IMG/VR virus record: IMGVR_UViG_3300020171_002230 | Coordinates: 1 to 25,288 of that record | Direction: 5' to 3' (one strand) | Origin: a virus | Length of the DNA stretch: 25,288 bases | In this document: positions 7,244 through 25,288 of the stretch, piece by piece | How positions within the stretch are numbered: the first letter of the stretch is position 1 | Layout of the letters: every line of letters begins with the position of its first letter | Program-made: the position numbers and the translations under genes | Notes under the pieces: generated by a model | Seen by the model: the letters and a program-made list of their open reading frames with translations, nothing else | What the model was told of the DNA's origin: nothing | The model's database searches: none

Positions 7244-8128
7244 ATGAAATTAACGGCAGGGGCATGGACCGAGATCTTCCGGGCCGGAGACTACGGGGCC
7301 AAGGGGACATACGGCGCGGATGATCTGGACAAGATGGTTGCCAACTTCAATACCTCCGACCAGGTGCCGATTGTGGTTGGCCATCCCGAGACCGATTCCC
7401 CGGCCTGGGGCTGGCTGGCCGCAGTGAAGCGGGTGGGGGATGTGCTGACGGGCAAGGTTGGTGAGCTGCATAAGGATTTCGCCCAAGCCCTGGCCGAGAA
7501 CAAATTTCGCAACCGGTCGGTGCGGATCGCGAGGACCGCGCAAGGACCAAAACTTCTTCATCTGGGATTCTTGGGGGCCACCCTGCCCCAGGTGGAGGGA
7601 CTGAAACAGACGGCACAATTCGCCGGCGACGGTGATCGTGTCGACTATGGCTTCGACCTGCCAGGGCAGGTCGATAACCCCGGCAACACTAAGGAGAAAA
7701 CGACGATGACGGAAGAAGAAATTGCAAAGCTGCAGGCAGACCTGAAAAAAGCCCAGGATGACCTGACTGCCGAGAAAGCAGGCAGGTTGACCGACAAGGA
7801 AGCTGCTGACAAAAAGGCCGACGAAGCCAAGGGGGCTGAGTTCTCGGCCTGGGTGGAGACGGAAATGGTCGCCACCGGCAAGCTCCCCGCCGCACGCAAG
7901 GATGAGGTAACGGCGTTCATGCGCAGTCTGCCGGACGGCGATACCGCCGATTTCAGTTTTGCGGACGATGGGTCCACCAAGTCGGTGCAACCGGTGGCCT
8001 GGTTCAAGGATTTCGTCAAGGGGCTGGCTGCAGCCGAGTTTACCCGAGATCTGCCGGTTGGAGCGGTGAAGGATTTTGCTCGCAAAGGCGAGAAGGGTAA
8101 GCTGGTCGACCTGTCCCATAAGGTTTGA
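7244..8128 (+). CDS. Head maturation protease/scaffold, Mu gpI-like
   Basis: This 294-aa protein matches Mu gene I-type prohead proteases. The N-terminal half carries the family signature VPIVVGHPETDSPAWGWL (about residues 42-59) and NKFRNRSVRIA (about 86-96), which lie in the protease domain. From about residue 150 the sequence changes abruptly to a Lys/Glu/Ala-rich helical scaffold (TEEEIAKLQADLKKAQDDL), ending in a basic C-terminus. In Mu the protease is made as a fusion with a scaffold region, cleaves scaffold and itself, and the products leave the prohead. An AGAGG ribosome site precedes the start. The scaffold part also appears to have its own start (listed separately). Confidence 0.85.
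   Translation: MKLTAGAWTEIFRAGDYGAKGTYGADDLDKMVANFNTSDQVPIVVGHPETDSPAWGWLAAVKRVGDVLTGKVGELHKDFAQALAENKFRNRSVRIARTAQGPKLLHLGFLGATLPQVEGLKQTAQFAGDGDRVDYGFDLPGQVDNPGNTKEKTTMTEEEIAKLQADLKKAQDDLTAEKAGRLTDKEAADKKADEAKGAEFSAWVETEMVATGKLPAARKDEVTAFMRSLPDGDTADFSFADDGSTKSVQPVAWFKDFVKGLAAAEFTRDLPVGAVKDFARKGEKGKLVDLSHKV
7706..8128 (+). CDS. Nested scaffold protein, in frame within the protease gene (Mu Z-like)
   Basis: An internal ATG at 7706, residue 155 of the protease, is preceded by AAGGAG at 7691-7696 with a nine-base spacer, a better ribosome site than that of many genes here. It falls exactly where the sequence switches from protease-like to coiled-coil scaffold. Initiation there would yield a separate 140-aa scaffold, TEEEIAKLQADLKKAQ onward. 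In Mu a scaffold protein, Z, is made from an internal start in gene I, and lambda Nu3 in gene C is similar. The sequence evidence is the ribosome site and the domain boundary; the product itself is inferred. Confidence 0.75.
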   Translation: MTEEEIAKLQADLKKAQDDLTAEKAGRLTDKEAADKKADEAKGAEFSAWVETEMVATGKLPAARKDEVTAFMRSLPDGDTADFSFADDGSTKSVQPVAWFKDFVKGLAAAEFTRDLPVGAVKDFARKGEKGKLVDLSHKV

Positions 8129-8134
8129 AAAGAC

Positions 8135-8163
8135 AATTACGAATTACGAATTAGAAATTACGA
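8135..8163 (+). repeat. Heptamer repeat R1 (single arm)
   Basis: Tandem GAATTAC units (AATTACGAATTACGAATTAG and a diverged unit) lie between the protease stop and the decoration gene. There is no opposite arm. The sequence after it (ACAACCATTAACAAGGAG) closely resembles the leader after R2. Confidence 0.85.
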
Positions 8164-8188
8164 CAACCATTAACAAGGAGTAACGATC

Positions 8189-8737
8189 ATGCCATTTAAC
8201 GCAGTGCTGGGCAGCCAGCAGTTTTCAGATGTACAGATCATCGACCGGACCCATCCGGCCATCATCCGGGGCGCAGCCTTCCGGCAGGACGGCCGCGTGC
8301 TCCCCAGGGGCCGGGTTGTGGCCAAAGACAGCAACGGGGCCATGGCCGCGTATGAGCCGGGCCTGGCCGCTGCCGTAGCCTGGGTTGCGGCAACAGTCTA
8401 TGCAGCCGGAGCCCTGGCGCTGCCGACGGTGGCTAACGGCCATTACTACCGCTGTGCCACGGGCGGAACATCCCATACCGCCGAACCGACCTGGCCGACT
8501 ACGGCAGAGGCGACGGTCACCGATGCCACGGCAGTCTGGGAGGAAGCCGGCCTGATCGGTGTTGACGACCTGGCCGGAGGCGGCGTCCTGGCCGAGGCCA
8601 TCGATACCGCAGTCGAAGGAGTGGGGCCGGTGCTGAGGCACGGCACGGTGGTGGCCGATAATCTCGATGTGGCCGGGGCGGCTGCAGCGACGGCGGATAT
8701 TGCCGCCCTGGAAGCGATCGGCATTTACGCCATCTAA
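8189..8737 (+). CDS. Head decoration protein (lambda D-like) with inserted carbohydrate-binding-like module
   Basis: This is a 182-aa protein directly before the major capsid gene. Residues 30-58 (RVLPRGRVVAKDSNG within it) and 122-182 (GGGVLAEAIDTAVEGVGPVL, then LRHGTVV and IAALEAIGIYAI) fit the head decoration protein family that trimerises on the shell of lambda-like capsids. Between them, residues about 61-121, lies a different unit: AWVAATVYAAGALA, then NGHYYRCATGGTSHTAEPTW, then TAVWEEAG. Its W-x5-Y-x2-G ... NG-x-Y ... P-x-W ... W pattern is that of a small beta module common in phage tail proteins and similar to chitin-binding type modules. AAGGAG precedes the ATG. The family call is fairly sure; the binding role of the insert is inferred. 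Confidence 0.78.
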   Translation: MPFNAVLGSQQFSDVQIIDRTHPAIIRGAAFRQDGRVLPRGRVVAKDSNGAMAAYEPGLAAAVAWVAATVYAAGALALPTVANGHYYRCATGGTSHTAEPTWPTTAEATVTDATAVWEEAGLIGVDDLAGGGVLAEAIDTAVEGVGPVLRHGTVVADNLDVAGAAAATADIAALEAIGIYAI

Positions 8738-8743
8738 AAAGAC

Positions 8744-8812
8744 AATTATGAATTACGAATTACGAATTACGAATGAACTGCGGTTCTTTTTATAATTCTC
8801 AATTCGTAATTC
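8744..8812 (+). repeat. Heptamer palindromic repeat R2
   Basis: The left arm has four GAATTAC-type units (8744-8774) and the right arm has reverse-complement units (8793-8812, AATTCTCAATTCGTAATTC), with a short spacer. GAATTACGAATT pairs exactly with AATTCGTAATTC, so the transcript can form a hairpin between the decoration and capsid genes. The right arm is nearly identical to those of R4 and R5. Confidence 0.9.
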
Positions 8813-8842
8813 AAGCGAACCATTTAACAAGGAGAACCAATC

Positions 8843-9820
8843 ATGCAAGTGAACATTCGTCAGTACTTTACTCCGGCAGCGGTGGCCCAGCATCTTGAGG
8901 CCCTGCCGGTCCTGGAAACCTTTATCATGGACCTGATCTACGGCAACCGGATCACCCATCCCCTGCCGGTACTCGGCGTCGATGAGCTGCTCAGCATCAC
9001 CGGCAACGTCCCGGTGGTCCGGCGTGGCACCGCGGCTTACCCGTTGTCCGGAGAGAGCAAAGGTATCACCTACCTGGAGCCCCAGCCGGTGGATGTGTCC
9101 AGCTTCCTCGGGGCGGTCGACCTTAACAACCTCAAGCTGCTTGGCGATCAGGGCATCGAATACTGGGTGCGCGGCAAGGTCGACACCCAGCGGCGGGCGG
9201 TGCGGTCGACAACCGAGGCCATGGCCTGTCAGAGTCTGTCCGGGTCCATCGCCTATCCGATGAAGACCGATTCGGGCCTTGACACCTACTCGGTCAATTT
9301 CGGCTCGATTCTCAGCCAGACCATCACGGTCAAGTGGGACCATGTCGACAAGACCCTGGCCACTATCCTCCTGGATCTGATAGCCATGGGCAATGTCATC
9401 AAGCGCGCCTCCGGCTACGGCTCCAAAATCGTCTACCTGGCGGGTCAGGATGTCTACATCGCCGTCGCCAACAAGATCCTCGGCGTCCAGGATGCCAAGA
9501 TCAACGCGCAGGTCACCGAAAAGGGCATCACCATCGCCGGCTTCACCATCCTGCTCGCTACCGGCGGCTATAAGGACCTGGCCAACGCCGGGGCCTGGGT
9601 GCCGTCGGTTGCCGATGACAAGATTGTCGCCGTGGCCGTCGATGCCCCGTTCAAATTGTTCTACTGCGCACTCGATGATCTCGATGCCAACCTTTTGCCG
9701 ATGCCGTTTTTCAGCAAGCCGGTGAAGATGGACAACCCCAGCGGCTACAACATTATCGGCATGTCCAAGCCGGTGCCGGTACCGGTACCGAAGGCCATCT
9801 GCGCGGGAACTGCTATTTAA
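8843..9820 (+). CDS. Major capsid protein (lambda gpE family)
   Basis: This is a 325-aa protein, close in length to lambda gpE (about 340 aa), in the usual place just after a decoration protein. The N-terminus, IRQYFTPAAVAQHLEALPVL, and the following PVVRRGTAAYPLSGES and LGDQGIEYWVRGKVDTQRRA segments fit the Phage_cap_E family with an HK97 fold. The C-terminal part ends with a short PVPVPVPK run. It forms the icosahedral shell; the lambda E plus D pairing differs from phage Mu itself, whose capsid protein T belongs to another family. A strong AAGGAG site lies 12 bases before ATG. High expression is expected. Confidence 0.87.
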   Translation: MQVNIRQYFTPAAVAQHLEALPVLETFIMDLIYGNRITHPLPVLGVDELLSITGNVPVVRRGTAAYPLSGESKGITYLEPQPVDVSSFLGAVDLNNLKLLGDQGIEYWVRGKVDTQRRAVRSTTEAMACQSLSGSIAYPMKTDSGLDTYSVNFGSILSQTITVKWDHVDKTLATILLDLIAMGNVIKRASGYGSKIVYLAGQDVYIAVANKILGVQDAKINAQVTEKGITIAGFTILLATGGYKDLANAGAWVPSVADDKIVAVAVDAPFKLFYCALDDLDANLLPMPFFSKPVKMDNPSGYNIIGMSKPVPVPVPKAICAGTAI

Positions 9821-9823
9821 GCC

Positions 9824-10252
9824 ATGGCTTATTCAACCATAGATAATCTGCTGGCGCTGCTGCCGGCAGCGGCCCTGATCAAGCTATCCAACGATCAGGC
9901 CGGAGCGACCGCCGTCGATATGACCACCATCGCGGCGGCGATCGCCCAAGGCGACACAGTCATAGACGGCTATGTCGGAGTGCAGCGCCAAGTGCCCCTT
10001 GATCCGGTGCCTGGCCTGATCGGGACGATCTCGGCCAACCTGGCGATCTACAATCTCTATCGCCGCCGGAACCAGGTGCCGGAGATCTGGGAGAGCCAAT
10101 ATAAAGCCGATATCGCCGTCCTGCTGAAGATCAGTACCGGATCGATCAGCTTCGGCAGCGATGTCAAACCGTCCGCCCCGCCGCAACAGGCCCTGGCCCA
10201 TGCAAGCGGAAAGATCCTGTCCGGCCCTGGCGGTCTCCTGGAGGGCTTTTAG
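9824..10252 (+). CDS. Head-tail connector, Mu gp36-like (DUF1320)
   Basis: A 142-aa protein with the hallmarks of DUF1320/Mu gp36: N-terminal YSTIDNLLALLP, the segment IAQGDTVIDGYVGVQRQVPL (about residues 45-64), and ISANLAIYNLYRRR (about 72-85). These proteins are adaptor-type connectors fixed below the portal. The C-terminal 35 residues are Pro/Gly/Ser-rich and probably extended. The start is three bases after the capsid stop with no strong ribosome site, so it may be translationally coupled to the capsid gene. It abuts the next gene without a gap. Confidence 0.82.
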   Translation: MAYSTIDNLLALLPAAALIKLSNDQAGATAVDMTTIAAAIAQGDTVIDGYVGVQRQVPLDPVPGLIGTISANLAIYNLYRRRNQVPEIWESQYKADIAVLLKISTGSISFGSDVKPSAPPQQALAHASGKILSGPGGLLEGF

Positions 10253-10678
10253 ATGGCGGCGATCCTCAGTCTGGCCCAGCAGCTTGAGGCCCTCATTGCC
10301 AGGATCAAGGCTGAGGTGGTGGGCCTGAAATCAGTAGTCGGCCTGGAGGAACTGGAAGAGGCCATGGAAACAGCCGAGCTGCTGCCGGCGGCAGTGGTAA
10401 TCTACTCCGGTGACTATCCGGAGAAGCCGGCTGCAGGGCTCAGCAATTATGCCGGGCAGAAGATCAACCGCTACTGGTCGGTGATAGTCGTCCTGGAGCT
10501 GACTGCCGGGCCGGGTGAAGCCCTCGATCTGATAGAGGCGGTGGAGAAGGCCGGAGTCGGCTGGCAGCCATGCCGGGGGGCGAGGTTCCTGGCGGCTGCG
10601 GGGAAAAGGTTTGTCGCAAAATTCAATCAAACACGGGTCGTTTACGAGGTTCGCTTTACGACCATGACCACAACTTAA
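10253..10678 (+). CDS. Tail terminator/completion protein, Mu gp37-like
   Basis: This is a 141-aa alpha/beta protein with a helical start, a central strand-rich region (KINRYWSVIVVLELTAG, about residues 73-89), a helix (LDLIEAVEKA) and closing strands (QTRVVYEVRFTTMTTT). Size, order after the gp36-like connector and this layout fit Mu gp37/DUF1834 or the broader tail-terminator group that caps the tube and joins it to the head. GGAGGG lies eight bases before ATG. I do not see a decisive motif, so the family name is a contextual call. Confidence 0.68.
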   Translation: MAAILSLAQQLEALIARIKAEVVGLKSVVGLEELEEAMETAELLPAAVVIYSGDYPEKPAAGLSNYAGQKINRYWSVIVVLELTAGPGEALDLIEAVEKAGVGWQPCRGARFLAAAGKRFVAKFNQTRVVYEVRFTTMTTT

Positions 10679-10687
10679 GGAGATATC

Positions 10688-11437
10688 ATGGGAGCACCAT
10701 TTTCGTTTATAGGCGAGGCTGATGCCTACGTCGACATACTGAGCGACACCGGTGTACGCACCGGCCTGGAGCTGAAAGGCAACTGCAGCGAGTTTACGCC
10801 GAAGCCGGACGCCGAGAGGAAAGAACAAACCTCGAACGGCCGGGGCAAGACCGGTCAGGTTATCGCCTCGGTCACCCTGCCGAAGCCGATGACTTGCACC
10901 GTGAAATTCAACCAGCTCGACCAGGCGCTCTTTGCCGCCGCCTTCTTCGGGACTAACTCGATACTGACTCAAGCAGCCGGGGCTGCTGCCGAGCGGGATG
11001 TGACGACCATTGAGGATAAGTGGGTGGAGATAGGCGGGGTCATGCTGGCGTCCGCCGTGGTGACAGATCCCACCGGCTTAACCACCTACGTCCTCGGCAC
11101 CGATTATGAGCTCAATACCCGGTTGAGCATGATCAAAGCCCTGGCCACCGGGAGTATTCCGAGCGGCGAGATATGCAAGGTCACCCCCACCTATGCGGCG
11201 GTAAACGGCGTCGAGATGAAGGCGATGACCAAGAGCAACGTGCGGATCCGCGTCAAGCTCGATGGTCAGAACTTTGCCGACGGCCGTGATTTTATCACCG
11301 ACGTCTATATGATGCGCCTCAACCCGACCAGCAACTTCAGCTTCATCGGCACCGAGTTCGCCGAGGTCACCTTCGACGGCGTCCTCGAAACACCGACCGG
11401 CTTCGATGAGCCAATGAAACATACCTGGCTGAGCTGA
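10688..11437 (+). CDS. Major tail tube protein
   Basis: This 249-aa, strand-rich protein follows the terminator and precedes the chaperone, the standard slot of the tail tube protein. N-terminal FIGEADAYVDIL and KPMTCTVKFNQLDQALFAAA resemble tube proteins of transposable siphophages and related phages. Residues about 120-180 hold an inserted beta domain with the pattern YVLGTDYELNTRLSMIKAL that recurs in many virion proteins. The final part (FSFIGTEFAEVTFDGVLETP) closes the barrel. A strong AAGGAGATATC ribosome site sits just before the ATG. No sheath gene precedes it, which supports a non-contractile tail. Confidence 0.78.
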   Translation: MGAPFSFIGEADAYVDILSDTGVRTGLELKGNCSEFTPKPDAERKEQTSNGRGKTGQVIASVTLPKPMTCTVKFNQLDQALFAAAFFGTNSILTQAAGAAAERDVTTIEDKWVEIGGVMLASAVVTDPTGLTTYVLGTDYELNTRLSMIKALATGSIPSGEICKVTPTYAAVNGVEMKAMTKSNVRIRVKLDGQNFADGRDFITDVYMMRLNPTSNFSFIGTEFAEVTFDGVLETPTGFDEPMKHTWLS

Positions 11438-11448
11438 TCGGCTTAATC

Positions 11449-11473
11449 AATTACGAATTACGAATTACGAATT
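11449..11473 (+). repeat. Heptamer repeat R3 (single arm)
   Basis: Three perfect tandem GAATTAC units, AATTACGAATTACGAATTAC and on, lie in the gap between the tube and chaperone genes. There is no inverted arm. The ribosome site GGGGGATT of the next gene follows directly. Confidence 0.9.
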
Positions 11474-11484
11474 TGGGGGATTAA

Positions 11485-11853
11485 ATGCGGAAAAGCAAAA
11501 TTATCAACGTCGAAGGTCTCGGCGAAGTGACGGTAAAGGAAATCAGTCCCTTTGCCGTCTACAAAGCGATGTCATCCGGTCAAACAGGCCCGGAGCTCCT
11601 GGCCCTGGCGTTGGACTGTATCAGCCTGCCACTGGAGAAGGTGGAGCAACTCTATCCCTCCGAGCTCGAACAACTAGTCAACACCTTTATGGAGGTGAAC
11701 AGCTCTTTTTTGGCAATAGCGGCCAAGGTCGGCCTCAAGCAAACCATAACCGGCATGGTGGAGCAGCTCTCAAAAACCTTGCCGCAAGTGTTTGCCGACT
11801 CATACAAGCTGGCCATGTTGGTGCCTGGCATTACGGGTGGCACTTCTTCCTGA
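11485..11853 (+). CDS. Tail assembly chaperone, unshifted (gpG-like) form
   Basis: A 122-aa helical protein between tail tube and tape measure. It begins with a short strand region (IINVEGLGEVTVKEISPFAV, residues 6-25), then helices rich in Leu/Glu, fitting the gpG-type chaperones that coat the tape measure protein before tube assembly. Inside the gene (11706-11712) is T_TTT_TTG in the correct phase for -1 slippage, so this is the shorter of two expected products. The unshifted C-terminus ends GITGGTSS. GGGGGA precedes the ATG. Function rests on gene order and on the frameshift architecture typical for this gene. Confidence 0.8.
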   Translation: MRKSKIINVEGLGEVTVKEISPFAVYKAMSSGQTGPELLALALDCISLPLEKVEQLYPSELEQLVNTFMEVNSSFLAIAAKVGLKQTITGMVEQLSKTLPQVFADSYKLAMLVPGITGGTSS

Positions 11854-11882
11854 TCGCGCTTGAGACTTTGAACGGTAAATAG
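11485..11882 (+). CDS. Tail assembly chaperone, -1 frameshifted (gpGT-like) form
   Basis: Reading 76 codons from 11485, slipping back one base at T_TTT_TTG (11706-11712) and continuing from 11712 gives 56 further codons to TAG at 11880-11882, three bases before the tape-measure ATG. The extension begins with a Gly/His/Asn-rich linker and ends in a conserved-looking segment: LAASVCRLIQAGHVG, then WHYGWHFFLIALETLNGK. Aromatic motifs of this kind occur in T domains of tail chaperones. In lambda and most long-tailed phages the ratio of G to GT is set by such slippage. The slippery site, phase and open frame are seen directly; use of the site is inferred. Confidence 0.78.
11706..11712 (+). promoter_or_regulatory. 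Programmed -1 ribosomal frameshift site (T_TTT_TTG)
   Basis: Six T followed by G, in phase as TCT-TTT-TTG, form a canonical X_XXY_YYZ heptamer. It is the only perfect heptamer I found in the chaperone gene, and the -1 frame stays open from here to 11882. Confidence 0.78.
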
Positions 11883-11884
11883 GC

Positions 11885-14800
11885 ATGAACCCCAATAATC
11901 GCTTGGAAATGTTCCTCACCCTCAACGCTGAGGCCTTCAAAAAAGGCCTCAGCGCTGCCGGTACCGGCGTGCGCAATATGGCCGGTGGGGCCAATGCGGC
12001 CTTCTCAACGACCAAAGCCAGGCTGCAGGAAAATCTAGTTGCCGTCAAAAAATACAACGCCGAACTGCAACAACAGAGTGGTATTGTCCAGGGTTTAAAG
12101 GGCCATGTCACTGCCCTGGTCGGGGCCTACCTCGGCTTTCAGTCGATCATCGGGGTCGTCGGCTTGTTACGGTCTGCCGATTCTGCGGCCTTCTCCTTGG
12201 AGGCATCGCTGCGGGCGGCAAATCGCGAATTCACCAATATAGGCAATGCCGACTCTTGGACGGCGGCTATCGGCCGGATGGCCGGAGAGCTGCGGATATA
12301 CTCCAAGTCGGAATTGAAAACGGCAGTGGCCTCGACCATCGACATGACCAAGCGCCTCGGTTTTTCTGCCGAGCAGATGGAAGTCCTCATTAAGAGGACC
12401 GCCGACCTCAGTGCCGGTAAGACCGACCTGAATGGCGGTATCGAGCGGGTAACCGCGGCGATGCGCGGCGAAGCAGAGGCTTCTGAGTATCTGGGCCTGA
12501 CCCTGAATGAGAACTACGTCAAGGCCTGGCATGAAGCCCATAACGCTCACAACAAGGCCTGGAAAGATCTGACAGATCTGGAAAAGGCCCAGATCCGCTT
12601 CAACGTCTTTCTGGAACAGGCAACCCCCCTTACGGGCAAAGCTGCCGATTCGGTCACTACCCTGTCCGGTGCCTATGCCCTGGTCGGGGCCAATATCTTA
12701 GATGCAGTAGAAGGCAACCGGAACGCAGTTGAAGCCACCAAACAGCTGTCGACATTTATCGCCGAAAACGCCGACAAGATCGGCGAGCTCGCGACCATCC
12801 TGATCACTGCTGCCACGGCGACCATGCAGTTCGTCTTGAATAATAAAGAAGCGGTGGCGGCAGTAGGTCTCGTGGTGCTCGGTGCCGGGACTTTATCTTT
12901 TGCCATTTCTTCGCTGACCACGGTATGGCGGGCGCTGAATGTGGTGATGCTGGCGACTACAGGCCAGCAGTTTGGTCCTTGGGCGGCATCAACAGTCACC
13001 GCTATCAAGTCGGTCAATCTGGGGGCGATGACGCTTAAGACCACGATGGGGGCACTCGCAGGATTGCTGCTGGCCTGGGAGGCAGGCAAGTGGTTTGGCG
13101 GACTCATCGGCCAGATCGACATTGTGCAGACGGCCATGGTGGGCCTGATCCACAAAGCCGATCAAGCGCGCCTGGCTGCTCAAAAGATGTGGGCGCAGCT
13201 CACCGGCTCGGATGCGGATGTCAAGGCCATTGATGACAAAATCGCTATCAGCAACACAGTCTATAAAGAGATGCTTGCCGATATCAAGGCTGGCAAGGGC
13301 GCAGGGGAGAAGAAAAACACCGCGCCGGAGAAGCAGCCGGAAGCCCCTGAAAACCCTAAACAATCCGACACTCCGGATGCGCAGAAAAAAGCTGATGTCG
13401 GTTACCGCACCCCTGAATATCTCGATCAGCTTGATGAGGCGGTCTTGTCGCCGGAGGAATTGGAGGACCGCAAGAAGCGCTGGGCCGAACGGGAGCAGCA
13501 AGAAAAGCAGCTTAACGACGAGAAGAACACCAGGCTTGACGATGTGGCCAAGGCCAACGCCGAGAAAGATGGCAAGCGGGAGAAGATCAGGCAGGCGGAC
13601 CACAACCGCAAGGTTGATCCGAATAGCTCTAATTACGACCGAGAATATGCGAAAAACTATGCGGCAAAGCAGCGGAGAATTGCGGCTGAAAAGGCGGCAG
13701 AAGAGGCCCGCAAACATCCGCCACAAAGACAAGGAGAACAACAGTTATCCGAGGTAGAGCCGGAGGAAGAACCAGAAAATGACCGGGAGACAGAGGCCGG
13801 CAAGAAGTCGAAAAAGGTGATATCCAGATCCGGTGGATCTGCCGGGGCCAGCCTGATCAGCGAAGAGATCAAGGAGATCGAGACCGAACGCAAGGCCGAG
13901 CGCAAAGAGTTGTTCCAGGGCATGGCCACCCTCGACCATATCGACCAGATGAACGCACAGGTCGATATGGCTGCCGCCTCCAAATATGCAGCCAAGGCCT
14001 CTGAGCGCAAGCGGCAAATATTCGACGCGCTCCAATCTGAAAACGAGCGCAACCGGCAGGCCGAGGAAGACGCCGCCGCCAAGGGCGAAACAGTTGTCAC
14101 CAAGCGGGCGACGGCTACATATGATCCGGCCATTGCCGCCCTGGAGGCCGCAGCCAAAGAGAACGAGTTGCGGGCCAAGCAGATGAAGTCCGGGACATTG
14201 TCGGCAATGGCGAAGAGCCTCGCAAATGTGGAGGCCGAGCGCCAGGCGTTCGCCAAGGGTGCAGAGGCCAAGAAGGCGCAGATCGAGGCGGATCAGGTTG
14301 CGGCAGAAAAAGAGTATCAGACCAAGCTGCGCCTGGCTGAGCTGGACAAAGGCCTGCACGAAGAGGCGGTTAAACGCAACGAAGATCTGGCCGAGTCGGC
14401 TGAACAATCCGCCGCCGCGCGGATCAAGGCCGAAGAGGACGCCACCGGTAAGGCCAAGTCTGTATTTGAAAAATATGCCGCCCGCGTCAAGGAGTTGCAG
14501 GACGAGATCGCAGGTCGTGAGCGCTCCCTGGCCGACGAACTGAGCGACCTTGATCCCCATGCCACCGAGGAGCAGCGCTGGCGAAGAAAGGCCAAGGCCG
14601 CCGCCGATTACGAAAAAGCAGCCAAGGCAGCCATGGCAGCCGGTAGGCTCGATGAAGCCAGAGAATACGCCGATCAGGCCAAGACCACCTACGCCGGGCT
14701 GAAAGACGGCAGCGGCCGGATCAGCGACAAGCTCGCCGGTCGCACCGCCTTCTCCGGGGTCAGCTCTGCCGGCAACCTGGGCCTGGCGATCAGCAAGATG

Positions 14801-15046
14801 ATGACCGATGCCGCCGGCAAGGCCGCAAAATCAGGGCTTATGGGGATTGATGGACTAAACACCCGTATTTCATCGCAGTTACAGAAGGCCATGGGCGCCC
14901 TGGCCGATGCCGCCCCTACCGGACCCGGCAAACAGCAAGCGGCGCAGGTGCATGAGATCCGCCTGGGGAATGCCAGGTTGCAGGGCTCGCCGAACGATGT
15001 AGCTGATTTTATCAAGCAGTTGGAACTGGCGGGGATGCGCGCATGA
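11885..15046 (+). CDS. Tail tape measure protein
   Basis: This 1053-aa protein is the longest head-to-tail spacer gene before the tail-tip genes. The N-terminus, RLEMFLTLNAEAFKKGLSAA, is typical for tape measures. Three hydrophobic stretches follow (about residues 60-90, 310-345 and 375-405), then some 450 residues rich in Glu, Lys, Ala and Arg that read as long coiled coil (about 430-880). The C-terminus ends in a helical region with SPNDVADFIKQLELAGMRA. It sets tail length and may help DNA cross the inner membrane. At the usual rule of about 0.15 nm per residue the tail would be near 150-160 nm. Start-site ribosome signal is weak (AAATAGG), consistent with coupling to the frameshifted chaperone stop. 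Confidence 0.9.
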   Translation: MNPNNRLEMFLTLNAEAFKKGLSAAGTGVRNMAGGANAAFSTTKARLQENLVAVKKYNAELQQQSGIVQGLKGHVTALVGAYLGFQSIIGVVGLLRSADSAAFSLEASLRAANREFTNIGNADSWTAAIGRMAGELRIYSKSELKTAVASTIDMTKRLGFSAEQMEVLIKRTADLSAGKTDLNGGIERVTAAMRGEAEASEYLGLTLNENYVKAWHEAHNAHNKAWKDLTDLEKAQIRFNVFLEQATPLTGKAADSVTTLSGAYALVGANILDAVEGNRNAVEATKQLSTFIAENADKIGELATILITAATATMQFVLNNKEAVAAVGLVVLGAGTLSFAISSLTTVWRALNVVMLATTGQQFGPWAASTVTAIKSVNLGAMTLKTTMGALAGLLLAWEAGKWFGGLIGQIDIVQTAMVGLIHKADQARLAAQKMWAQLTGSDADVKAIDDKIAISNTVYKEMLADIKAGKGAGEKKNTAPEKQPEAPENPKQSDTPDAQKKADVGYRTPEYLDQLDEAVLSPEELEDRKKRWAEREQQEKQLNDEKNTRLDDVAKANAEKDGKREKIRQADHNRKVDPNSSNYDREYAKNYAAKQRRIAAEKAAEEARKHPPQRQGEQQLSEVEPEEEPENDRETEAGKKSKKVISRSGGSAGASLISEEIKEIETERKAERKELFQGMATLDHIDQMNAQVDMAAASKYAAKASERKRQIFDALQSENERNRQAEEDAAAKGETVVTKRATATYDPAIAALEAAAKENELRAKQMKSGTLSAMAKSLANVEAERQAFAKGAEAKKAQIEADQVAAEKEYQTKLRLAELDKGLHEEAVKRNEDLAESAEQSAAARIKAEEDATGKAKSVFEKYAARVKELQDEIAGRERSLADELSDLDPHATEEQRWRRKAKAAADYEKAAKAAMAAGRLDEAREYADQAKTTYAGLKDGSGRISDKLAGRTAFSGVSSAGNLGLAISKMMTDAAGKAAKSGLMGIDGLNTRISSQLQKAMGALADAAPTGPGKQQAAQVHEIRLGNARLQGSPNDVADFIKQLELAGMRA

Positions 15047-15441
15047 CCACAATCACCCTGACCGACAGTACTACCACCATCACCCTGCCCGATGACACTT
15101 TATGGCGGGATGAGCTGGACTGGAGCCCGGTGGATCAATCCATCGAATATATGCTGTCCGGGGCGCTGGATATTCAAGGCGGTACCCGGCTGGCCGGTCG
15201 ACCGATTACCCTGGGCGGCGATGAATCATCCAGTTGGCTGGCTCGGGTCACCATCCTGGCCCTGATGACTTGGGCCGGGATTGCCGGTCAGAGTTTGACT
15301 CTGGATTACCATGGTCGGATCTTCACCGTCATGTTCCGCCACCAGGACGCCCCGGCTGTTGATGCCAAGGCCGTGCTCGAGCAGGTGCCGCCGGCGGATG
15401 AGGACTGGTACTGGTTTACTATAAAATTAATGGCAGTCTAA
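15043..15441 (+). CDS. Tail protein following the tape measure
   Basis: A 132-aa, strand-rich protein overlapping the tape-measure stop by four bases. N-terminal TITLTDSTTTITLPDDTLWR suggests beta hairpins, followed by a helix-containing middle and the aromatic C-terminus DEDWYWFTIKLMAV. In long-tailed phages the gene just after the tape measure encodes a small distal-tail or tip-initiator protein; this one could fill that role in the D3112/B3-like layout. I recognise no specific family motif. The next gene is separated by repeat R4. Confidence 0.65.
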   Translation: MTTITLTDSTTTITLPDDTLWRDELDWSPVDQSIEYMLSGALDIQGGTRLAGRPITLGGDESSSWLARVTILALMTWAGIAGQSLTLDYHGRIFTVMFRHQDAPAVDAKAVLEQVPPADEDWYWFTIKLMAV

Positions 15442-15445
15442 ATTA

Positions 15446-15520
15446 AATTACGAATTACAAATTACGAATTACGAGGTCGTTTCCTTTAATTCGTAATTCG
15501 TAATTCTCAATTCGTAATTC
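15446..15520 (+). repeat. Heptamer palindromic repeat R4
   Basis: The left arm (15446-15474) has GAATTAC units, with one variant CAAATTAC; the spacer is GGTCGTTTCCTTT; the right arm (15488-15520) has the reverse complement. The stem AATTACGAATTACGA pairs with TCGTAATTCGTAATT, giving a long hairpin. It is followed by CAGCGAACAAAGAGAGCGACA, almost the same leader as after R5. Confidence 0.92.
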
Positions 15521-15542
15521 AGCGAACAAAGAGAGCGACACA

Positions 15543-18500
15543 ATGCCAGTAACAACCGATGATATAAAGATCCGCGCCAGTCAGCGACTCACCGATGAGA
15601 CGGACGGTGGCGGCTTCATGACCGCAACCGAGATCGTGGATGGGGCGATCAACAACCTGCATGACGATATCAGCCGTCTCGACCGGACCATTGGCCGGGT
15701 CTCGCTGCGCAAATTCTTCGTGCATGTCGACACCGCCGATACTGACGCCTATTACGGGGCGCACGTGATAGTCAGCGAGCGCACCGCCGATCCGGGTGTC
15801 AGTGTGGTCTTGATTGCCTCCGAGTCGGATGCGGAAGACCGGGCCGGGGCGGTGAATAGATTAGAAAGCTATGTAGCGCGAGGCCCCAAGTATCAGGGAT
15901 GGCTGTGGGGAGACCAACTGGCAGGCAGTCGGGCCATCCTCCTGTTTCAAAAACGGGGACTGGCCGTGCCGAAGGTCGGATCAGTGTTCTTTTTCATCAA
16001 AGACGAAGGCCTGGCCGGCGAGGTGTCGCAATATGTGCGGGTATCAAAGGTCGAGAGCAGCGAACAGGAGTTTACGACCACCGCCTCATCAACTGAATAC
16101 GGCGAGATAGCTCAGTCGTTTAATCGCACCGTGGTGACCATGACTATCTCAGATCCGCTGCGCTATACCTTCCCCGGGATTGCCATTACCACCAACGACG
16201 CGGTCACCGGCGGGGATATCTACACCACCGTGGTGGCGGATTCCGCCAAATACTACGGGGCCATGCCGGTCACCGAGGCGATCCCCAACAGCGCCGTGGT
16301 GCTAAACGTGGAGAGTATTTATGCCCAGATAGTGCCGACCTCGCAAGGCGAAGCGCCCATGGTTGACCTCTCCGTTGGTGAGGCCGGACCGGTGATCGGC
16401 AGCGGAATAGCGCGCGCCATTACTGTGCCGAGTTTCCCGATGAGCAGCGGCTGTACCCTCTATTTCGGCATGGGTTTGAAGCCCGGTTCCCTCGCGGTGG
16501 ACCACAACGGCCACACCTACACCGACACCGGCGGGGCTGGCATCATCTACGAGGGAGCCACCCAGATGGGCACAGTGGATTATTCCACCGGCCATATCTC
16601 CTTTGCCGGGGTGGCCAGCGCCACCGCTACCGCTACCGTTACCGCCATCGCCGGGGCCGAATCCCCCCGAGTCAATGACACCTTCATTATCCCGGTGGAG
16701 CTGAGTAACCGGGGGTATAATTTTACCGCTCTCCTCAACCCGCTGCCGTCCCCCGGAACGCTGGTGGTTGACTACATGGCCCAGGGCGAATGGTATCGTC
16801 TGCGCGAAAGAGCAGGCAATCTGGTGCCTGATATCGCCGCCACCGGGACGGGCACGGTAAACCTGGCCACCGGCTCAGTTATACTGACCTGCGCCGCCCT
16901 GCCGGATGTCGGCAGCGGGATCCTGTTCTCCTGGGGATCGCCCCTGGAGCTGGTCGATTTGGCAGGCTCGGTCACCATTGACGCCGCCCAGATCGATCAC
17001 ACCGTCGCCGAGGCCCCGGTCAAGCCGGGATCGCTGACTATCTCCTGGATGTCCGGCGGCAGCACCGTCACCGCCACCGATAACGGCTCCGGATTTCTGA
17101 CCGGGGCCGCCACCGGAACCATCAACTATGCCACCGGTCGCATGCTGTTCGAACCAACCCTGCTACCCTCTCCCCAGACCACCTACGAGCTCAATTACCA
17201 CAAATACCCCTGGCTCACTGAGGCGATGGCGATAACCACCACGGCGGGGATCGCCACCGCCACCCTGAGCCAGGCACCCCTTAAGCCGGGGACGCTGGAT
17301 TTGCGGGTGATGGTGGGGTTTGCTGCCGGTTTCGGTCATATCTACGAGTTGCGCGACGACGGCGCAGGCGGCCTGAGCGCCGGGGGATTCAGCGGCATTC
17401 TAGCCATGAGCAGCTCAGGATCGTCCGGAGGGATGACCTACGGCTGGGACTTTGAGGTAACGCCCTCGCTGACGACCTCCACCAGCTCAACCATTGTAGA
17501 GGTGAGCGGGGTAACCGGCTCGATAGATTACCTCACCGGGGAAATATCGCTGAACGTCGGGGCCATCAGCGGTACCAAATCAGCGATCAGCGAGACCTAC
17601 ACTGTAGCGGAATATAACTCGGCATCCGCGACTCACTCCGCGCCGATCACCAGCTATACGCAGACTATCACCGCTATATCCGGTGGGACGACCTCCGAGC
17701 TGATCTCCACCTATACCCTGAGCGCCGCCGCCGAAGTAGCGGCCACCGAGACCACGCCGGTCAAGCCGGTGATCATCGACCTTACCCGTGATATCAGCGG
17801 CAAAGTTCTGGTGCCGAGCTCGGTGGCGTTTCTGCTCGATGGCGTGCGCCATGTTGACCGGTTGGGTCGGGTGTACAGAATAGCGTCCATGATTACCGGC
17901 ATGGCCGTTGACGTGGGGACGATCAACTATACCACCGGCGAGGTGATCCTGGATCTGTACGAGGGCGGGTCTACCGCCATTGAAGTCACCTCCATGCTGG
18001 GCCGCTTCGGCCATCAGTTCATGTCCGGCTGCACATTCCGCACGCCGGGCGCGCCGATCAGGCCGGGCTCCATCCAGATTCAGGGGGTTGCCAATGATGG
18101 CCGGGCGATTTCCGGGACATCGGGATTTGATGGGACGATCTCCGGCCAGCTCTGCCGGGGGTTGGCCAATTTTGAGACGGGGGTGGTGTCGGTGGAATTC
18201 GGCGAGCTGGTGGACGCTATCGGTAACGAGGGTGAGTCATGGTACGATATTGACCTGGTCGATATCGATGGCCAAATATTCAAGCCGGTGCCTGCTTTTT
18301 GCGAGACGCTGACCTATGCCTGCGTTGTTTATTCCTTTATTCCGCTCGACGCTGAGCTGTTAGGCATCGATCCGGTGCGGCTGCCGGTGGATGGCCGGGT
18401 TCCGATCTGTCGGAGCGGTGATGTGGCCGTGGTACACAATACTCAAGCGCTGACCCTGTCGCCGGATCCAACGGCGGGTTATGTCTACACCCTGCCCCGC

Positions 18501-19223
18501 GCCGCTGATTCGGTGGAGATCTATGACAGCAGCGCCGGTATTCCGCTGCGCGTCCCTACCACCATGTACGCCCACGAGGAGGGCGGGACCACCATCACCA
18601 TCGACCTGGTGAACAGCGACTTCACCGGCTATATCATGCCGCTGGTGGCCATGCACAAGATTGAGGACATGGTGCTGGTGTCGGCCACCCAGATCAACGG
18701 TCAGATCAATTTGAGTAGGGGGGTGACCAAGGACTACCCGGTAGCGGGGACACTGGTCAGCTCGGCCCTGCTCTTCGGCGATCTGCGCGCGCGGGCATAC
18801 GGGTTGTTCGATCAAAAAACATGGACGAATGTCTTTTCCGACGATCTGATCGGCGATCCGGCCACCGCCACCTATAACGAGATTGATTATCCGCTGACGG
18901 TGACCAATCGGGGTTGCGTGACTGAGCGCTGGGCGCAGGTTTTTGACAGCCCCGATCATTTCTATTTGATCGGCGAGAAGCGCGGCATTGTGGCCTCAGG
19001 CTATATCACCCAGGATTTCAGCCCGATCAACCAGGCCACCGGCAATGCCTATTTTTTCCAGGATTATCGCGGTTTCGGTTCAGGATACGTGGCGGGAAAC
19101 GTCAACCGTTTTAACACCACCGGAGCCGCTCCTGGTGCCTGGTCGGTGCGTACCACACTGCAGGGTCCGGAGACCGAGCCGGAAGATCATTTCACCATCC
19201 AGCCGCGGGGTGATGCGAGATAA
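15543..19223 (+). CDS. Large tail protein with six internal beta repeats
   Basis: This 1226-aa protein is the largest gene here. The N-terminal about 280 residues form one domain (ITASQR-like start region, then LRKFFVHVDTADTDAYYGAH). From about residue 310 to 890 there are six diverged units, each with a KPGSL-type strand and a GTINYATG-type hairpin: GTVDYSTGHISF (near 16568), GTVNLATGSVIL (16852), GTINYATGRMLF (17115), GSIDYLTGEISL (17516), GTINYTTGEVIL (17915) and GLANFETGVVSV (18157). The last about 330 residues form a distinct domain ending WAQVFDSPDHFYLIGEKRG and GNVNRFNTTGAAPGAW. The family is a virion structural protein of transposable siphophages; a central tail fibre or tip scaffold is likely. 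Enzymatic motifs are absent. A frameshift or break is not seen. Confidence 0.75.
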   Translation: MPVTTDDIKIRASQRLTDETDGGGFMTATEIVDGAINNLHDDISRLDRTIGRVSLRKFFVHVDTADTDAYYGAHVIVSERTADPGVSVVLIASESDAEDRAGAVNRLESYVARGPKYQGWLWGDQLAGSRAILLFQKRGLAVPKVGSVFFFIKDEGLAGEVSQYVRVSKVESSEQEFTTTASSTEYGEIAQSFNRTVVTMTISDPLRYTFPGIAITTNDAVTGGDIYTTVVADSAKYYGAMPVTEAIPNSAVVLNVESIYAQIVPTSQGEAPMVDLSVGEAGPVIGSGIARAITVPSFPMSSGCTLYFGMGLKPGSLAVDHNGHTYTDTGGAGIIYEGATQMGTVDYSTGHISFAGVASATATATVTAIAGAESPRVNDTFIIPVELSNRGYNFTALLNPLPSPGTLVVDYMAQGEWYRLRERAGNLVPDIAATGTGTVNLATGSVILTCAALPDVGSGILFSWGSPLELVDLAGSVTIDAAQIDHTVAEAPVKPGSLTISWMSGGSTVTATDNGSGFLTGAATGTINYATGRMLFEPTLLPSPQTTYELNYHKYPWLTEAMAITTTAGIATATLSQAPLKPGTLDLRVMVGFAAGFGHIYELRDDGAGGLSAGGFSGILAMSSSGSSGGMTYGWDFEVTPSLTTSTSSTIVEVSGVTGSIDYLTGEISLNVGAISGTKSAISETYTVAEYNSASATHSAPITSYTQTITAISGGTTSELISTYTLSAAAEVAATETTPVKPVIIDLTRDISGKVLVPSSVAFLLDGVRHVDRLGRVYRIASMITGMAVDVGTINYTTGEVILDLYEGGSTAIEVTSMLGRFGHQFMSGCTFRTPGAPIRPGSIQIQGVANDGRAISGTSGFDGTISGQLCRGLANFETGVVSVEFGELVDAIGNEGESWYDIDLVDIDGQIFKPVPAFCETLTYACVVYSFIPLDAELLGIDPVRLPVDGRVPICRSGDVAVVHNTQALTLSPDPTAGYVYTLPRAADSVEIYDSSAGIPLRVPTTMYAHEEGGTTITIDLVNSDFTGYIMPLVAMHKIEDMVLVSATQINGQINLSRGVTKDYPVAGTLVSSALLFGDLRARAYGLFDQKTWTNVFSDDLIGDPATATYNEIDYPLTVTNRGCVTERWAQVFDSPDHFYLIGEKRGIVASGYITQDFSPINQATGNAYFFQDYRGFGSGYVAGNVNRFNTTGAAPGAWSVRTTLQGPETEPEDHFTIQPRGDAR

Positions 19224-19227
19224 AGAC

Positions 19228-19301
19228 AATTACGAATTACGAATTACGAATTACGAGGTTTTGCCTTTAATTCGTAATTCGTAATTCAAAATTCGTAATT
19301 C
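19228..19301 (+). repeat. Heptamer palindromic repeat R5
   Basis: The most perfect copy: four GAATTAC units in the left arm (19228-19256), spacer GGTTTTGCCTTT, and right arm 19269-19301, reverse-complementary to it. It is followed by CAGCGAACGAAGAGAGCGAC, which is also the leader and weak ribosome site of the next gene. Confidence 0.93.
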
Positions 19302-19320
19302 AGCGAACGAAGAGAGCGAC

Positions 19321-20283
19321 ATGATACCAATAGTTTACCGATGGGACGATTCCAACGCGCCGGTGGCGAGGGGCGAGAGACGCAGCTTATGCGATATTTT
19401 ATACGCCTGCCTGGTCACCGGCTACGGCACCAAACTCCCGGCGGGCTGGACGCGGGAATATGTCAATGCCACCTTTGACAAGGCAGCGTTCCGCAACAAT
19501 CCAGATACGGGCACGGGGTTTTATCTGCAGGTTGATGGGGCCGGGGCGACGTATGCCTATCAATCCAAAATAATGGGCTACGAGGTGATGACCAATGTTG
19601 ATGCCGGGCTGTTTCCTTTTTCGTCAACAGCTCTAGGTGAGTGGTATATATCGAACGCCGCAGGCACTACGGCGCGGCCGTGGGTGCTTGTAGCTGATGA
19701 AAGGGCTTTTTATTTTACCTGTTGGAGGTTTGCGTCTGCTGCCGTAACTCCAACTAACGCAGATATAAATAAAAATGAGATTTTTTTTGGCGACATAATC
19801 AAGTGGTCTCCGGATGATAACTACGCCTGTTTGCTCAACGCAGGTGTTTCTCTTAACACTTATGGGCTTGGATTGGATATTTCATTAAGAATTCAGTCAA
19901 CGTCGTCAGGAAACGGAACCATCAAAATGCCCAGAAAGGCTAATGGCTCACCAGGATCAATAGTGCCTGCGATTATTTGCGGTGGAGGACCTGGAGCAGA
20001 AGGAAACGTAAGTACAAATAACATAAACACGCCAGGTGTAGTAGGCATGCCTTTTGTTAATGGCGATCCTATTTTAATATCTCGGCCCTATATTAACGAT
20101 AGCGCGGCCTATACATTAAGAGGCTGGCTCCCAGGGTTTTATTATCCATGCCACAACTCGGCATCATTCCAGCAGCTATCTACCCAAACAGTCGATGGGA
20201 AGAGTTATCTTGTTATAAATGGATATCTTAATGCCGGATATGTCGGCGGCTATTTCATCTCGCTCGATGACTGGAGGGCATGA
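19321..20283 (+). CDS. Tail structural protein of the 'VYRWDDSNAP' phage family
   Basis: This 320-aa protein has a conserved N-terminal two-fifths that recurs in many phage tail modules: IVYRWDDSNAPVARGERRSL, then LCDILYACLVTGYGTKLPAG, GWTREYVNATFDKAAFRNN, IMGYEVMTNVDAGLFPF and PWVLVADERAFYF. The family has no assigned activity that I know of. From about residue 130 onward the DNA is clearly AT-richer, and the sequence (Gly/Asn/Ser-rich, with IIKWSPDDNYACLLNAG and GGGPGAEGN) departs from the rest of the tail genes. This suggests a swapped or fast-evolving outer domain, possibly a surface or receptor-contact part. The start follows R5 and overlaps nothing; the stop overlaps the next gene. Confidence 0.7.
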   Translation: MIPIVYRWDDSNAPVARGERRSLCDILYACLVTGYGTKLPAGWTREYVNATFDKAAFRNNPDTGTGFYLQVDGAGATYAYQSKIMGYEVMTNVDAGLFPFSSTALGEWYISNAAGTTARPWVLVADERAFYFTCWRFASAAVTPTNADINKNEIFFGDIIKWSPDDNYACLLNAGVSLNTYGLGLDISLRIQSTSSGNGTIKMPRKANGSPGSIVPAIICGGGPGAEGNVSTNNINTPGVVGMPFVNGDPILISRPYINDSAAYTLRGWLPGFYYPCHNSASFQQLSTQTVDGKSYLVINGYLNAGYVGGYFISLDDWRA

Positions 20284-24490: not shown

Positions 24491-25288
24491 ATGAAGCTGC
24501 AAATGGAAAGGCAAAAAAAAATGAAAGGAGTTATACCTTATTTCGGCGGCAAATCTCGGCTGGCAAAAACCATCATTGACAAGATTCCTGAACATACCTG
24601 CTATGTCGAGGTATTTGCGGGGGGAGCAAGTGTCTTTTTTGCCAAAGAACCATCACCAGCAGAAATCCTCAATGATCTTGATAAAGACCTGGTTACATTG
24701 TATCGGGTGATCAAGCATCATCCCGAAGAACTTTATAAGCAGTATAAATTTAGTCTGGTTTCTCGCTCTGAATTCGACAGAGAACAACAGGTCAACCCTG
24801 ATACTCTTACTGATGTTCAAAGGGCAGCCAGATATCTCTATCTGCAGAAGAATGCCTTCGGCGGTCATATAACCGGCCAAACCTTCGGCACGAGTACTAC
24901 CGGCAAGCCGCGTTTAAACCTGCTGACGCTTGAAAACACCATCGAAGATGCCTGGAAGCGGATGATCCATGTGACCATAGAATGCAAGGACTTTCGCGAC
25001 CTGATCACCAGGTACGACCGGCCGCATTCGTTTTTCTTCCTGGACCCTCCATATTGGAACATTCCAGGCTATAAATATGATTTTGCTGATCAGGACTTTT
25101 ATGACCTGCTGGATATCCTGAAAGACATTAAAGGCAAGTTTCTTATGACTATCAACGATACGCCTCAAGTCAGAGAAATATTCTGTGGTTTTTCGATTGA
25201 GGAAGTTACCCTGAAATACTCATGCTCCGCATCAAAAGCGAGCAGGGCAAAGTTAAGGACTGAGCTGCTGATTTCGAACTATAAATAG
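24491..25288 (+). CDS. D12-class N6-adenine DNA methyltransferase (Dam-like)
   Basis: This 265-aa enzyme would transfer a methyl group from S-adenosylmethionine to adenine N6 in DNA. Motifs are in alpha-group order: PYFGGKSRLA (residues 16-25), SAM-binding VEVFAGGASVFF (39-50), the LNDLDKDLV segment (60-68) and catalytic DPPY (in FFFLDPPYWNIPGY). The target-recognition part lies between them (residues about 70-170). Size fits the D12 family. Two starts are possible: 24491 (weak AGGA) and 24521, behind AAAGG plus an A-rich spacer and beginning KGVIPYFGG, which is closer to the usual family N-terminus. The gene is AT-richer than the tail genes. In phage Mu this position carries the mom modification gene, so host-restriction evasion is plausible. 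No partner endonuclease is visible within the window. Confidence 0.92.
   Translation: MKLQMERQKKMKGVIPYFGGKSRLAKTIIDKIPEHTCYVEVFAGGASVFFAKEPSPAEILNDLDKDLVTLYRVIKHHPEELYKQYKFSLVSRSEFDREQQVNPDTLTDVQRAARYLYLQKNAFGGHITGQTFGTSTTGKPRLNLLTLENTIEDAWKRMIHVTIECKDFRDLITRYDRPHSFFFLDPPYWNIPGYKYDFADQDFYDLLDILKDIKGKFLMTINDTPQVREIFCGFSIEEVTLKYSCSASKASRAKLRTELLISNYK

Follow-up and report, generated by a model that had tools for sequence, protein, structure and literature searches.

GAATTAC heptamer hairpins in a Mu-like prophage as probable gene-less relatives of elements built around PF05635 (S23/IVP) genes

Members of the protein family PF05635, the S23 or 23S-rRNA intervening-sequence proteins (IVPs), are four-helix bundles for which, to our knowledge, no catalytic activity or catalytic domain has been recognized. 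They are common, and we know of no function for them outside the intervening sequences (IVSs) of rRNA. The 23S IVS of Coxiella contains an S23p open reading frame (ORF), with upstream GACAGAT heptamers and 28-bp terminal inverted repeats, is excised by RNase III, and is suspected of being a former mobile element (PMC4990558). The repeats analyzed here, which came to attention in a 25,288-nucleotide stretch of prophage DNA (the window), share with the IVSs of Coxiella and Leptospira (PMC4990558) the same protein family, terminal inverted repeats that form a long stem, tandem heptamers (in Coxiella just 5' of the ORF), and a sporadic, horizontally spread distribution. They differ in that IVSs lie within helices of 23S rRNA whereas these elements are dispersed between protein genes and in phages, in that the heptamer arrays are themselves the inverted repeats, and in that the copies in the window are gene-less.

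Tandem heptamers have also been described as TAACTGA in Beggiatoaceae, Cyanobacteria, and Bacteroidetes (PMC4679880), as GGGNATC in Xanthomonas and Nostoc (PMC4692102), and as four copies of GGACCGG in Geobacter (PMC2700814). Like the present arrays, these are often of four units, mostly intergenic, and patchily distributed across phyla. In the available text of these papers, roles in translation, G-quadruplex formation, or regulation are proposed and no cognate gene is named, whereas the arrays discussed here are inverted pairs linked to PF05635. Searches of open-licence papers found neither the exact repeat string GAATTACGAATTA nor any account of heptamer inverted repeats as a general feature of PF05635 genes. 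Comparison with MITEs is also apt, as short gene-less copies share terminal inverted repeats with a gene-bearing element, lie between genes, and in one case are accompanied by a short direct repeat; unlike MITEs, the parent element has no known transposase, its ends are tandem heptamers of variable length, and no regular target duplication is established. REP/REPIN elements served by RAYT proteins are likewise palindromic, intergenic, and non-autonomous, whereas here the arms have a period of seven and no link to a Y1 transposase is seen. The elements are placed here next to rRNA IVSs and MITEs; that they form a mobile-element class of their own is possible.

The window is the late part of a Mu-like prophage on contig C154 of a 4.2-Mb genome (G000). 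Its genes run from early lysis-type genes through terminase, portal, Mu F-like protein, protease, decoration, and major head genes to connectors, major tail, and tail and fibre-side genes, followed by a DNA methyltransferase gene (phrog_56; 24491–25288) at the end of the window, 3' of the tail assembly chaperone. GAATTAC occurs 18 times as an exact match, compared with 1.54 +/- 1.21 expected from shuffles, and all 18 matches are confined to five gaps of the head/tail operon, in clusters that start at 8135, 8744, 11449, 15446, and 19228. As an earlier examination of the letters alone (the sequence-only reading) had claimed, each cluster lies after the stop codon of one ORF and before the ribosome site of the next, and three of the copies (8744, 15446, and 19228) are full palindromes while two (8135 and 11449) are single arms. 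The features are as follows:

8135–8163, + strand: single heptamer arm (AATTACG AATTACG AATTAGA AATTACG) between the head maturation protease and decoration-protein genes; the preceding stop codon ends at 8128 and the following ATG is at 8189
8744–8811, + strand: full hairpin with loop GAACTGCGGTTCTTTTTAT, between the decoration and major head protein genes
8812–8842, + strand: tail CAAGCGAAC and AAGGAG ribosome site, 5' of the head-protein ATG; this tail type is also found in phage L050
11449–11473, + strand: single heptamer arm (AATTACG three times, then AATT), 3' of the major tail protein gene
15446–15519, + strand: full hairpin with loop AGGTCGTTTCCTTT, between a 132-aa ORF and the gene of a 1226-aa structural protein
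15520–15542, + strand: tail CAGCGAAC and GAGAG ribosome site, repeated together with the hairpin
19228–19300, + strand: full hairpin with loop AGGTTTTGCCTTT, between the 1226-aa and 320-aa protein genes
19301–19320, + strand: tail CAGCGAAC and GAGAG ribosome site, repeated together with the hairpin

The conserved spacer and shared tail that had been ascribed to the palindromes are found in part: two copies have the tail CAGCGAAC exactly and the third has CAAGCGAAC, and beside the spacers GGTCGTTTCCTTT and GGTTTTGCCTTT the third copy has GGTTCTTTTTAT. Positions 15480–15551 and 19261–19332 match at 89% over 72 nt, so that the repeated unit takes in the downstream Shine-Dalgarno region. No ORF lies between the arms of any copy in the window, and every copy is situated between phage protein genes, none in a 23S rRNA gene.

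The GAATTAC repeat is not specific to phages. About ten array sites, mostly intergenic, are found on the chromosome of G000 (contigs C19, C42, C78, C80, C88, C122, C159, C163, C181, and C183), and two further arrays lie in C145, a contig that has MuA/MuB-like early genes and probably represents the remaining half of the window's prophage. Equal density throughout host DNA, which the sequence-only reading had named as a result that would count against it, is not what is found, as about seven sites fall in 35 kb of prophage contigs and about ten in the other 4.17 Mb of the genome. A phage of a congener (G016:C1) carries 12 within 30 kb, and a viral contig (L049) nine within 9.9 kb. The array is present in most genomes of the host genus, in 0 of 43 genomes from other genera of the host family, and in scattered families of the host order; a reversed control pattern is absent from all genomes scanned. 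The hairpin AATTACGAATTACG-N(1-30)-CGTAATTCGTAATT, in which arms of four or five AATT blocks are commonest, occurs in at least 117 stretches of GTDB genomes, from Bacteroidota, Cyanobacteria, Acidobacteria, Chloroflexi, Planctomycetota, Desulfobacterota, Patescibacteria, and one ANME-1 archaeon. The same heptamer hairpin in Pseudanabaena, Nostoc, and Planktothrix bears out the comparison with cyanobacterial repeats made in the sequence-only reading.

A gene-bearing form of the repeat is found at one locus in five congeners (G001, G002, G007, G008, and G014), where a 122-aa gene between moxR-type ATPase and DUF58-type genes (both named from sequence here) is flanked on both sides by inverted GAATTAC arrays. 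The encoded protein belongs to PF05635, 23S_rRNA_IVP (E 2.6e-28), and its best PDB match, 2rld (E 3.3e-34), was deposited as five chains. The five sites in the window are probably gene-less, MITE-like copies, three as hairpins and two as single arms, of a mobile-element family whose complete form is one PF05635 gene inside two inverted arrays of about four to six tandem heptamers. The window copies have the inverted tandem heptamer arrays of the cognate-clade type and no PF05635 gene between their arms, the gene being found there in the GAATTAC element of the congeners, with which the gene-less copies share their ends.

This association of gene and arrays extends across phyla. An inverted repeat (at least 17/20 between two 200-nt flanks) joins the flanks of 81 of the 103 distinct PF05635 genes with enough flanking sequence, compared with 9 of 400 mismatched flank pairs and 0 of 605 control ORFs; the other 22 genes have no clear inverted repeat. 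Period-7 arrays stand on both flanks of 37 of the 103 genes and of none of 636 control ORFs, with period 8 found in five genes and all remaining periods in none, and 33 of 41 array pairs are inverted. The sample includes 50 genomes taken in for carrying the hairpin; among PF05635 relatives that were not chosen for heptamers, the inverted repeat is present in 21 of 28 and period 7 on both sides in 8 of 28. The 7-mers vary by gene (AGTAAAT, CAAGTAT, ATGAGCC, AGAGTTG, GGTCGAT, and others), and the median array is 5.4 units long, the detection window setting a lower limit of four. PF05635 is present in 46 of the 50 hairpin-bearing genomes and in 54 of 97 relatives, among which its presence fails to separate repeat-bearing from repeat-free genomes.

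Several individual loci show the range of these arrangements. On a 119-kb viral contig (L223, IMGVR_UViG_2845860650_000005; 600–1040), a PF05635 gene is bordered by GAATTAC arrays whose orientation is opposite to the usual one. Two adjacent PF05635 genes with GAATTTC arrays (L290, G010:C171; 1343–1919) are each preceded by CAGCGAACCGCAGAATATC, which resembles the phage hairpin tail CAGCGAAC. In Thermoflexus and in a Chloroflexi MAG (L303 and L305), long GAGCCAT arrays lie on one side of S23 genes and fold back on themselves. The family extends to CPR bacteria, as seen in Gracilibacteria (L100/L315, G226), where PF05635 genes contain six or seven in-frame TGA codons, as expected where TGA encodes glycine. 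Among the congeners, G001 has a partial duplication of the end of its S23 gene and right-hand array and a broken reading frame (L275, G001:C198; 1360–1912), and the gene of G014 has an internal TAG, so that the complete element is decaying in some of them.

Another regularity is that the type of heptamer follows the protein. More closely related PF05635 proteins have more similar heptamers (Mantel r -0.22, 0 of 2000 shuffles as low; after 80% redundancy reduction, r -0.10, 15 of 5000 shuffles), and each clade tends to have its own 7-mer. One 100/100 clade contains the GAATTAC-type genes found in the host genus, in Pseudanabaena, in a Bacteroidota bin, and in G067, along with a few genes whose heptamers differ; the tree is built on few columns and its deep forks are not firm. 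Identity among the GAATTAC-type proteins of the host genus, Pseudanabaena, and Bacteroidota is 66–81%, and gene and repeat appear, from these comparisons, to have travelled together between phyla. Loose GAATTAC arms at other PF05635 clades (L311, L334, and L337) are one-sided, have up to two mismatches, and were treated as chance.

Empty sites provide a further line of evidence. The 1226-aa protein (15543–19223) has relatives at 36–61% identity in viral contigs and in other genera; for the major capsid protein, no relatives were found in the phage collection. The gaps that flank its gene measure 101 and 97 nt in the window and mostly 0–17 nt, repeat-free, in the relatives whose neighboring genes were read, with somewhat longer gaps, still repeat-free, upstream in L181 and downstream in L169. 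Most relatives have no gap at the position of the 19228 copy and a short repeat-free gap at that of the 15446 copy, the empty-site phages being L168, L181, L193, L183, L169, and L170. A comparison of the same gaps in related phages lacking the repeat, which the sequence-only reading had called for, thus finds the genes nearly contiguous. No target duplication is evident at the phage sites, where the relatives are too diverged to define an edge.

On the chromosome, the C122 site lies between a gene ending in ...ELAEKGF and a trpG-like gene (MLVIIDNYDSFTYN). Five congeners have an empty site there, ...GGAAAAGGGGTTTTAGATCATG or a close variant; G001, G004, and G007 have related copies. The hairpin of G000 stands between two copies of an 11-bp direct repeat, GGGGTTTTAGA, which is single in the empty site of the congeners; at this one site, the pattern resembles a target duplication followed, in some lineages, by precise loss of the element. 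At the moxR/DUF58 site no direct repeat was found at the edges of the element, and the guaB–guaA gap (C163) is uninformative as an empty-site comparison, most congeners having unrelated sequence there. The other chromosomal sites are mostly common to the congeners and old, with array lengths that change quickly, which, together with the restriction of the direct repeat to C122, counts against mobility. So does the lack of any PF05635 gene found in G000, where the element would now be immobile unless helped. From the sequence comparisons as a whole, we infer that the element is nonetheless probably mobile.

Some of the same gaps hold other repeats. In congeners, a trpE–trpG type gap that corresponds to the gap of the GAATTAC element in G000 contains hairpins of a different family, GGTGCCGTTACTCACAGAGCAAGG...TTACGGCACC, singly or in several copies (L235–L238 and L241), and a similar hairpin is found at the C19 orthologue of G014 (L434). 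At moxR/DUF58, the place taken by the S23 element in other congeners is filled in G004, G015, G016, G000, and G011 (L391–L394 and L396) by another hairpin, GAATGGCGTCGCGCAAAGGCCC...GGGCCTTTTCGC, which makes this gap a repeated insertion site. Gaps are preferred rather than required, as arms lie in frame inside ORFs for a Gp16-like protein (L049) and for a 197–202-aa protein with the motif ...ELRITNYELR... (L049/G016:C1); the statement that the repeats are placed only in gaps describes the window and not the family.

In the best surviving alternative, the S23 gene has the arrays as its operators or processing sites, and the lone hairpins are S23-bound regulatory sites, such as mRNA stabilizers or RNase III sites, rather than mobile DNA. 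Their intergenic placement suits such a role, as do arrays of about four to six units next to a gene whose PDB relatives have five chains and the stable RNA hairpins predicted at 8744 (-24.5 kcal/mol, z -4.6), 15446 (-28.5 kcal/mol, z -5.3), and 19228 (-34.1 kcal/mol, z -6.8); for the single arms at 8135 and 11449 no RNA fold is predicted. Comparison of phages points the other way. L050, which has one weakly similar late protein in common with the window, carries hairpins whose loop (GGTTCTTCCTAT) is almost identical to that in the window and whose tail and ribosome site (CAAGCGAAAGGAGAGAGC) are similar, in units 84–91% identical to those of the window over 77–120 nt. Over much of their lengths the DNA of L050 and that of G016:C1 agree at about 77%, yet the two phages differ in which gaps GAATTAC occupies and in the form of the element, other hairpin families filling the same gaps. 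Such differences disfavor a conserved role in expression ratios, and the earlier suggestion that the hairpins set the ratio of virion proteins is unsupported in that sense. The empty sites, the in-frame copies, the absence of an S23 protein from hairpin-bearing G000, and neighboring genes that share no common function likewise make regulatory sites an unlikely explanation.

Somewhat similar in standing, though improbable, is a neutral origin by polymerase slippage and template switching, in which 7-nt units expand and palindrome-templated mutation matches the arms with no mobilizing protein. Arm length does vary among orthologous copies, and 7-mers are the commonest long simple sequence repeats in many bacteria (PMC4679880). 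The arms also partly converge, with 11 of 34 complementary triplets compared with 4.1 expected. As 7 of the 11 are a single Acidobacteria-type triplet, covariation of the arms was set aside as proof of selection, although the signal is present. Slippage leaves unexplained that members of one protein clade from different phyla have the same 7-mer, that PF05635 genes lie within inverted arrays, and that empty sites are clean.

Movement by a Y1 (RAYT/IS200) transposase, as for REP/REPIN-like elements, would account for palindromic, intergenic repeats, and all genomes of the host genus carry Y1_Tnp genes; these genes are equally present in the repeat-free G003, G005, G009, G013, and G015, and no Y1 gene was seen linked to heptamers as PF05635 genes are, so that Y1 was rejected as the mobilizer and this origin is very improbable. 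That the hairpins serve the phage operon as ordinary intrinsic terminators or as attenuators, as their position after stop codons might suggest, is hardly credible, since a terminator scan made no call at any of the five window sites, the stems are A+T-rich with no T-run following, two of the five sites cannot fold, and at C19 on the chromosome a genuine terminator stands apart, downstream of the copy. An Rfam search of the window gave no family above the gathering score.

The reading of the window copies as gene-less members of an S23 element family thus retains one of three earlier ideas, that of a non-autonomous mobile element, which best fits the chromosomal copies, the empty sites, and the gene-bearing form in congeners; for the third idea, recombination seams for module exchange, no positive evidence was found. 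A possible mechanism begins with recognition of the heptamer arrays by the S23 protein, perhaps one unit per subunit. The protein would drive the spread of the gene-bearing element and, in trans, of gene-less copies. Gene-less derivatives would then have colonized the phage, where they may have multiplied as hairpin-tail-ribosome-site units, as the 72-nt segments that are 89% identical suggest. By analogy with RNase III excision of the Coxiella 23S IVS, cleavage of the long hairpins in phage mRNA is a reasonable expectation, and this cut, together with the new ribosome site supplied by the tail, could make intergenic insertion tolerable. Genes beside a full copy would lose translational coupling, any effect on expression being a by-product.

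How far the pattern reaches is a broader question, on which a more tentative proposal, with somewhat less than an even chance of being correct, can be made. Many bacterial tandem-heptamer repeats may be the ends of one unrecognized class of mobile element, in which a pentameric S23/IVP four-helix bundle would recognize about five clade-specific 7-mers and mobilize gene-bearing and gene-less copies without a classical transposase, the 23S rRNA IVSs being the members inserted in rRNA. The heptamer repeats of cyanobacteria, Beggiatoaceae, Xanthomonas, and Geobacter have been described singly and lack a known cause. With the repeat linked to PF05635 and matched to its clade, their origin and the function of S23/IVP proteins become one testable problem. 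The link would also account for the scatter of hairpins in phage operons and would offer a small mobile system with no recognizable transposase. A poorly understood class of bacterial repeats is thereby tied to one protein family, in an element that is widespread and probably mobile.
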